DNA of 64,000 bases from Prochlorococcus sp. AG-409-L21 (GTDB lineage Bacteria > Cyanobacteriota > Cyanobacteriia > PCC-6307 > Cyanobiaceae), in contig QCKH01000002.1 in assembly GCA_003215475.1 (NCBI GenBank), positions 62,001 to 126,000 on the forward strand, in the 5' to 3' direction. The notes under the pieces are model-generated. The model was not told where the DNA came from. It saw nothing but the letters and a program-made list of their open reading frames with translations, and made no database searches. Of this stretch, positions 38,698 to 40,737 are shown piece after piece; the first letter of the stretch is position 1, and each line of letters starts with the position of its first letter. Made by a program: the position numbers and the translations under genes.

Positions 38698-39423
38698 TTA
38701 AATATCTCTAGATCTTTTAGTAACAAGTAAATTAAGAACACCTAAAATAAATATCGTTAAAATAGAAAGTATAAATATACTTAAGTAAGGGCCTTGTAAT
38801 GCACTTACATCTCCCTTTAAAACTTCTCCAAAACTAGCAGATCCAAGTTCTTTTATAGTGAATCCACCAGCAACAAAAGGAGCATCAGAAATCAATATGC
38901 TTATAATTAGTGCTGGCATAAACTTTCTCCAGGATATCTTTGTCAATCCAATTGCATAACAAACAAAATCAAAGAATTGTGTCATCAAAAAAGCAGTCAT
39001 TAAAAAGAAATTATGCTCAATATATTGCTTGCCAATCTTTTCTATTCTTTTCATCTGTCTATTCCCTAAAAATTTCTCAACAAAACTTTTACCCAATCTT
39101 CTTGATAGAAAGAAAGAAGAAGAGCATGAAGAGAAATCAGCCAGAAAAATAATTATCATGCCAGCCTCAATTCCAAATAGATAACCGGCAATAACTGAAC
39201 AATATGTTCCTGGAATCGCAGGAATAATAATGCTTATAAACCTCAAAGTAAAAATTAATAATAAAGCAAATATATTTAAATTTTTGATCTCACTTTGACC
39301 GGTCTCAAGTAACCTATTGATTTGGTTAATATCAAATAATTTATAGCTAAGAATCATAGCCATAATGATAAAAATTAAGATTATGTATTTACACAAAAAT
39401 TTTTTTTGGTTCCCATCAATCAT
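38698..39423 (-). CDS. TVP38/TMEM64-family (VTT domain) membrane protein
   Basis: A 241-residue polytopic protein with about six hydrophobic segments. The VTT/SNARE-associated signature is seen as AIPGTYCSVIAGYLFGIEAG (about 77-96) and FFLMTAFLMTQFFDFVCYAIGLTKISW (about 150-175). The family includes putative lipid scramblases and transporters; substrate unknown. It is divergent from the flavoprotein gene across a short region holding a perfect inverted repeat. Confidence 0.85.
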   Translation of the reverse strand: MIDGNQKKFLCKYIILIFIIMAMILSYKLFDINQINRLLETGQSEIKNLNIFALLLIFTLRFISIIIPAIPGTYCSVIAGYLFGIEAGMIIIFLADFSSCSSSFFLSRRLGKSFVEKFLGNRQMKRIEKIGKQYIEHNFFLMTAFLMTQFFDFVCYAIGLTKISWRKFMPALIISILISDAPFVAGGFTIKELGSASFGEVLKGDVSALQGPYLSIFILSILTIFILGVLNLLVTKRSRDI

Positions 39424-39449
39424 AAAATCTCTATAAGAGTTTAATTATC

Positions 39450-39486
39450 ATCTGCTAATTAAAGGCGTATCCTTTAATTAGCAGAT
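39450..39486. repeat. Perfect 16-bp inverted repeat with 5-nt loop
   Basis: ATCTGCTAATTAAAGG (39450-39465), loop CGTAT, CCTTTAATTAGCAGAT (39471-39486). Both arms match without mismatch. It lies between the divergent TVP38 and flavoprotein genes and reaches into the only possible start region of the latter. It could be an operator, a translation-blocking hairpin or a scar of a mobile hairpin. Confidence 0.85.
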
Positions 39487-39495
39487 AGATTAAAA

Positions 39496-40737
39496 ATCAC
39501 TTTACCGGAGCCCATCGATCTAATAGTAATTGGAGGGGGGGCTGCAGGTTTCATGGGAGCCATTACCGCAGCAGAAGAGGGTCTTAATTCTGTAGCTATT
39601 TTTGAATCAACTTCAAAAACACTCGAAAAAGTAAGAATTAGTGGAGGAGGGCGCTGCAATGTCACTAATGCATGCTGGGAATCTAAAGATCTAGCAAGGA
39701 ATTACCCTCGAGGGGAAAAAGCATTATTAGGGGCGTTTAGCAGATTCTCTACTGGTGATGCCGTCGAATGGTTTAAAGAGAAAGGGTTGCACTTAACTAT
39801 TGAAAAAGATGGGCGTATGTTTCCTCGGTCAAACTCTTCTATAGAAGTAATACGATGCCTTCAAGATGCTGCTCAAAAAGCTGGAATCAAGTGCTTAACT
39901 GGCTTAGATATTCAGAAAGTTGAGTCCCTAGGAATTAATAAAGGTTTTCGCATAAAATCAAGAACCAAAGGCTTCTTCTATGCAAAAAGAATTCTTCTGG
40001 CTACTGGTGGAAGCCCTACTGGAAAAAAAATTGCTAGTGAACTTGGTCACAAAGTAATTCAAGCAGTACCATCACTTTTTACATTTAAGATTGCTTCTTC
40101 TTGGCTTAAGACTTGTGCAGGTATTGCAGTTGATGATGTCAAAATTAAGTTAAAAGTAAAGGACAAGATGTTTGAGCAATATGGAAGAATATTAATTACT
40201 CATTGGGGCTTAAGTGGCCCTGCTATTTTAAAGTTATCTGCATTTGCAGCAAGAGATCTAAACTTGGAAAAATATAACGCTAAATTATTTATTAATTGGT
40301 CAAGTCAAAATATTAAAGATGCACAAGATTTATTAAATCTTTGCAGGAAGGACCTATCAAATAAAAAAATTAAAAATCATCATCCATTTAGAAATATTCC
40401 CAAGAGACTTTGGTTATCTATACTTAAAAGTATACAGCTTAACCCAGACATAAACTGGTCAAATCTCTCCAAGTCACATGGAAACTCTCTTTACAAAGCC
40501 TTAACAAATAACGACCATATTATTTCAGGGAAGGGTCCTTTTGGAGAAGAGTTTGTGACTGCAGGAGGAATTAATTTAAATGAAATTAAACCAAATACTA
40601 TGGAAAGTCGTATATGTAGGAATCTATATTTTGCAGGTGAGATTTTGAATGTAGATGGTGTAACTGGAGGTTTTAATTTCCAACATTGTTGGACAAGTGG
40701 GTGGATTGCAGGGCAATCAATTGCAGCAAATACTTAG
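39496..40737 (+). CDS. NAD(P)/FAD-dependent oxidoreductase, YhiN/HI0933 family
   Basis: Starts with a dinucleotide-binding motif DLIVIGGGAAGFMGAITAAE and has VRISGGGRCNVTNACWES and the C-terminal FAGEILNVDGVTGGFNFQHC then WTSG, all typical of the HI0933-like flavoproteins of unknown reaction. The first ATG (39553) lies inside the Rossmann motif and cannot be the true start. Upstream, the frame is open only to the stop at 39475-39477 and contains no ATG, GTG or TTG. I place the start tentatively at ATC 39496, which gives the usual N-terminus; ATC 39514 is the other option. Confidence 0.85.
   Translation: MTLPEPIDLIVIGGGAAGFMGAITAAEEGLNSVAIFESTSKTLEKVRISGGGRCNVTNACWESKDLARNYPRGEKALLGAFSRFSTGDAVEWFKEKGLHLTIEKDGRMFPRSNSSIEVIRCLQDAAQKAGIKCLTGLDIQKVESLGINKGFRIKSRTKGFFYAKRILLATGGSPTGKKIASELGHKVIQAVPSLFTFKIASSWLKTCAGIAVDDVKIKLKVKDKMFEQYGRILITHWGLSGPAILKLSAFAARDLNLEKYNAKLFINWSSQNIKDAQDLLNLCRKDLSNKKIKNHHPFRNIPKRLWLSILKSIQLNPDINWSNLSKSHGNSLYKALTNNDHIISGKGPFGEEFVTAGGINLNEIKPNTMESRICRNLYFAGEILNVDGVTGGFNFQHCWTSGWIAGQSIAANT

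Follow-up and report, generated by a model that had tools for sequence, protein, structure and literature searches.

How would translation begin on a gene whose protein is intact but that has no standard start codon? The question is raised by a flavoprotein gene in the window, by which we mean the whole 64-kb stretch of DNA that was analysed. The frame of the gene opens after a TAA codon (39475-39477), stays open to 40734, and closes with a TAG codon (40735-40737). The inferred product can be assigned to the TIGR00275/HI0933-like family (aminoacetone oxidase family FAD-binding enzyme), as judged by a match to the entire TIGR00275 profile (positions 1-401 of 401) at 418 bits, as compared to a curated cut-off of 183.8 (E 3.5e-125), and by the presence of the GGGxxG motif. 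It also matches PF03486 (HI0933_like) at 236 bits against 50 and the solved structures 2i0z, 4cnj, and 2gqf in the PDB. The N-terminal FAD-binding motif itself (DLIVIGGGAAGFM, encoded by 39517-39555) is in frame and begins upstream of the first ATG. The gene is present in a single copy in the source genome, and its closest named homologues are Prochlorococcus records from single-cell assemblies, so that the source genome is probably Prochlorococcus-like.

Nothing in the protein points to decay. None of the 92 positions that are conserved at 95% among 95 other homologues is changed in the window copy, and in its 419 codons we found neither a disruption of the frame nor a loss of conserved residues, such as would be expected of a pseudogene; the start codon alone is affected. 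Under the explanation that we favour (see below), it would have been strongly constrained up to very recent times, if not to the present. Indeed, the window copy resembles other TIGR00275/HI0933-like flavoproteins in its full-length match and in retaining every highly conserved residue, and differs from them in lacking a standard start codon. The features of the locus are collected in Table 1.

Table 1. Features of the flavoprotein locus, in window coordinates
Feature	Position	Strand	Remarks
VTT-domain (DedA/TVP38-like) membrane protein gene, divergent	38698..39423	-	neighbour in 10/10 relatives
Perfect inverted repeat, 16-nt arms, 5-nt loop	39450..39486		spans the -10-like box; absent in ten relatives
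TATCCT, -10-like box	39468..39473	+	34 nt upstream of the start column; TA invariant in all 11 genomes; putative promoter
Flavoprotein open frame, TIGR00275/PF03486 HI0933-like	39478..40737	+	419 codons plus stop; residues from 39505 onward align to relatives
ATC, candidate near-cognate start	39496..39498	+	initiation here would lengthen the ancestral frame by 2 codons
TTA at the ancestral TTG start column	39502..39504	+	base 39504 is A here, G in relatives
ATC, candidate near-cognate start	39514..39516	+	GGAG at 39507-39510 ahead; 3-nt spacing too short

A sequence-only reading of this locus had reported that no ATG, GTG, or TTG lies between the stop codon at 39475 and the Rossmann motif and that only ATC, ATT, and ATA are to be had there, and so we found it. 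On the plus strand from 39424 to 39555 there is a single ATG, at 39553, which is the first standard start codon in frame and lies inside the glycine-rich motif; there is a single TTG, at 39530, which is out of frame; and there is no GTG. The near-cognate codons in frame are ATC at 39496, ATC at 39514, ATA at 39523, and ATT at 39529, and no well-spaced Shine-Dalgarno sequence was found ahead of either ATC. We considered the internal ATG as the true start and rejected it, as initiation there would cut away the conserved FAD-binding glycine motif. We also rejected an upstream start in another frame followed by frameshifting: from the divergent gene to 39553 there is no ATG or GTG in any plus-strand frame, and the one TTG is misplaced.

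The comparison that proved informative was with the start column in relatives. Homologues were taken from 60 relatives and from a collection of species representatives, and their codons between the upstream stop and the GGG motif were read. An ATG, GTG, or TTG stands ahead of the Rossmann motif in all 90 distinct homologues, with TTG being used by many lineages. In every one of the ten homologues from the same genus, which are about 60% identical to the window in the flavoprotein, a TTG is found exactly ten codons before the GGG; the same column in the window is TTA. In the two genomes of the genus that we counted, TTG makes up 15-17% of leucine codons, and its invariance in this column despite that low share marks the column as the start. 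The sequence-only reading had not recognized this start column. At the start codon the window gene thus differs from its relatives by one base, A in place of G. The setting of the gene is likewise shared: the order rubredoxin, dedA, flavoprotein, hypothetical, aldehyde dehydrogenase is kept in most relatives. No further copy of the region was found in viral contigs or phages.

The explanation that we favour, with a probability of roughly 0.55, is that the TTG underwent a real and recent substitution to TTA and that translation was lost or was reduced to near-cognate initiation. According to this explanation, the ancestral start would have been the TTG at 39502-39504, a single G-to-A substitution at its third base would have created TTA and left the remainder of the gene intact, and the gene would now be either a very young pseudogene or weakly translated from near-cognate codons, the likeliest of which would be the ATC at 39496 or the ATC at 39514. 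We infer that the base is real and that translation is reduced; the absence of decay in the protein indicates that the loss of the start, if real, was recent. Start columns are seen to drift within the genus, as in a peptidase gene (see below) whose ATG column has become GTG, ATA, or ATT in some genomes, and such non-standard columns make a real change in the flavoprotein gene plausible. Published reconstructions count against it. Among 2,468 ancestral UUG starts, reported switches numbered 43 to AUG, 35 to GUG, 1 to CUG, and none to UUA (PMC5622118). The window gene is like those cases in that a UUG start is altered by one base and unlike them in that UUA is not among the reported outcomes, although UUG-to-UUA cases would be hard to spot in annotation.

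Also counting against a real substitution, and in favour of a mistake in the consensus, is the fragmentary state of the assembly (27 contigs, 1.34 Mb, 70% complete). If the A at 39504 is a product of whole-genome amplification, sequencing, or assembly and the cell in fact carries TTG, then the gene is an ordinary one; a single base would suffice, and, the protein being free of decay, there would be nothing else to explain. The assembly is probably a single-cell one, as are those that hold the nearest named homologues. To judge its quality, we compared 934 of its 1341 kb with a complete relative (G002, 1.75 Mb), which yielded 660 reciprocal best pairs. Frameshift-like breaks were as rare in the source assembly (four) as in the complete relative (three). 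Thus, the assembly is not visibly error-ridden, although the frameshift count says little about single-base errors. An error would, moreover, have had to strike one of only a few thousand start-codon bases, and another gene of the source genome has ATA at its start column, with ATT in two further genomes. On balance we regard a consensus error, which the sequence-only reading had also proposed, as unlikely, if far from negligible. Outside the window, at C7:12031-14933 of the source genome, a 970-codon frame of the complete relative matches two different frames, which join near C7:13390-13401; this is a frameshift, whether real or an assembly error.

A second conspicuous feature of the locus is the inverted repeat just upstream of the gene. 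It was described in the sequence-only reading as a perfect 16-bp hairpin ending 10 bp before the best ATC, and both statements hold: the arms (39450-39465 and 39471-39486) show no mismatch over a feature of 37 bp overall, and the distance is correct for the ATC at 39496. No other inverted repeat of such length occurs in the window, and dinucleotide simulations produced none with arms of at least 13 nt. Nevertheless, repeats of this kind are found elsewhere. The 934 kb of the source genome that were scanned contain 22 perfect inverted repeats whose arms reach at least 12 nt, and in 8 of these the arms reach at least 16 nt; the corresponding counts for arms of at least 12 nt are 53 in the complete relative and none in simulation. 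Many of these repeats are terminator-like. The repeat at the flavoprotein locus is not a dispersed element: a search of the genome returned its own locus alone, and no second intact pair of its arms was found in the 934 kb.

Could the repeat have caused the loss of the start? The sequence-only reading had proposed that insertion of the hairpin removed the normal start or that the hairpin controls initiation at an ATC. Several observations are in keeping with these proposals. The repeat is absent from this region in the ten relatives and lies close to the ATC at 39496, and as RNA it would form a very stable fold if transcribed in its entirety; in addition, the spacer between the dedA-like gene and the flavoprotein gene (39424-39501) is about 78 bp here as compared to roughly 170-300 bp in the four relatives measured. 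Against insertion stands the position of the start column, which begins at 39502, is separated from the right arm by 15 bp, and differs from the column in the relatives by a plain TTG-to-TTA change, such that one base explains the loss. Against control stands the -10-like box. In the alignment of upstream regions just two columns before the start codon are invariant, the TA of a TATCTT-like box, and in the window this box straddles the loop and the start of the right arm. On the basis of this conservation we infer that the box marks the position of the promoter; a generic sigma-70 scan found no promoter. With the box so placed, transcription would begin in or after the right arm and the left arm would lie outside the mRNA, and the leader that is left without the left arm has no notable structure. 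The hairpin thus probably cannot act in the mRNA, to judge from the alignment, and is probably unrelated to the missing start. We consider either form of hairpin involvement highly improbable, and so the sequence-only reading is upheld in its description of the gene and the repeat and not in the causal role that it gave to the hairpin.

The repeat sits between divergent genes and may represent an operator-like dyad or else have arisen by template switching. As its right arm falls in a stretch that aligns with the relatives, the left arm would seem to be the younger of the two. Under the favoured explanation of a one-base substitution, the repeat would be a lineage-specific feature in its own right, placed over the promoter, and would not account for the missing start. 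Two other identities were tried and rejected. The repeat is not an intrinsic terminator, as no site of that type (a G+C-rich stem followed by a run of T at the end of a gene) was found in 39350-39600. Nor is it a known RNA element: the one Rfam match, to the T-box, reached 13.9 bits where the gathering score is 93, lies on the other strand, and is attributable to chance.

We also looked for missing starts elsewhere in the genome by listing them from the 660 reciprocal best pairs between 934 kb of the source genome and the complete relative and judging the list by eye. Few were credible. Those of the source genome are the flavoprotein gene and a prolyl-oligopeptidase-like gene (named from its sequence by eye; C1:119417-121393, outside the window). 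Most relatives have ATG at the start column of the latter, the complete relative has GTG, the source genome has ATA, and two others (G005 and G010) have ATT; in these last two a later ATG is also present and could serve as the start. Two further genes have no canonical start in either the source genome or the complete relative, and both lie outside the window. The first is a coaE-like gene (named from a sequence motif only; C1:97466-98128, minus strand), which in both genomes has no standard start before its conserved RRIAITGGIASGK motif. The second is a TIGR03960-like B12-binding radical-SAM gene (C1:19689-21335), whose conserved part is preceded by no ATG, GTG, or TTG. Of 15 marine picocyanobacterial genomes, 14 have CTG at its start column and one has TTG; the column is set in the context CTGAAxxAxGAA, in some genomes about 2 nt past the stop codon of the upstream gene. 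In the two genomes whose leucine codons were counted, CTG makes up less than 5% of them, and the conserved column makes it likely that this gene starts with CTG.

An apparently start-less gene can thus be explained by comparing start columns across relatives. The lesson of the flavoprotein gene itself is likely to be modest, as it comes down to one base, real or erroneous. The CTG column of the radical-SAM gene is the more interesting by-product. Several marine picocyanobacterial genes have CTG, ATA, or ATT at the start column, and annotation pipelines would truncate or miss their proteins; these genes are possible test cases for the stringency of start-codon selection.

Finally, we consider whether the change in the flavoprotein gene could be both real and functional, with useful translation from the ATC at 39496, the ATC at 39514, or the TTA, and with low expression being tolerated or even selected. 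The intact, fully conserved protein and the non-canonical columns of the radical-SAM and peptidase genes would fit such a reading. The TTA, however, mismatches the initiator anticodon at two positions, neither ATC has a suitably placed ribosome-binding sequence, and the non-canonical codon is not itself conserved, the relatives having TTG. We think functional initiation quite unlikely, and more doubtful still that the gene is translated from an ATC or even the TTA as part of a wider tolerance within the genus of near-cognate starts (CTG, ATA, and ATT). Work in a reconstituted system bears on the choice of codon: at positions one and two of the codon IF3 tolerated nothing but Watson-Crick pairs, and it rejected weak pairing at position three, and yet AUU, a third-base mismatch with the anticodon CAU, still yielded some product in vitro (PMC10158994). 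By these pairing rules the ATC at 39496 or 39514 would be a better candidate than the TTA. The gene for IF3, infC, is present in the complete relative and was not found in the portion of the source genome that was read. A known system for comparison is sigR of Streptomyces, which starts with GTC (PMC5472188). The two genes differ in that the window column is TTA and in that translation of the window frame is putative. They are alike in having no ATG, GTG, or TTG at a conserved start position, and for sigR that study describes IF3-mediated repression of translation from the GTC.
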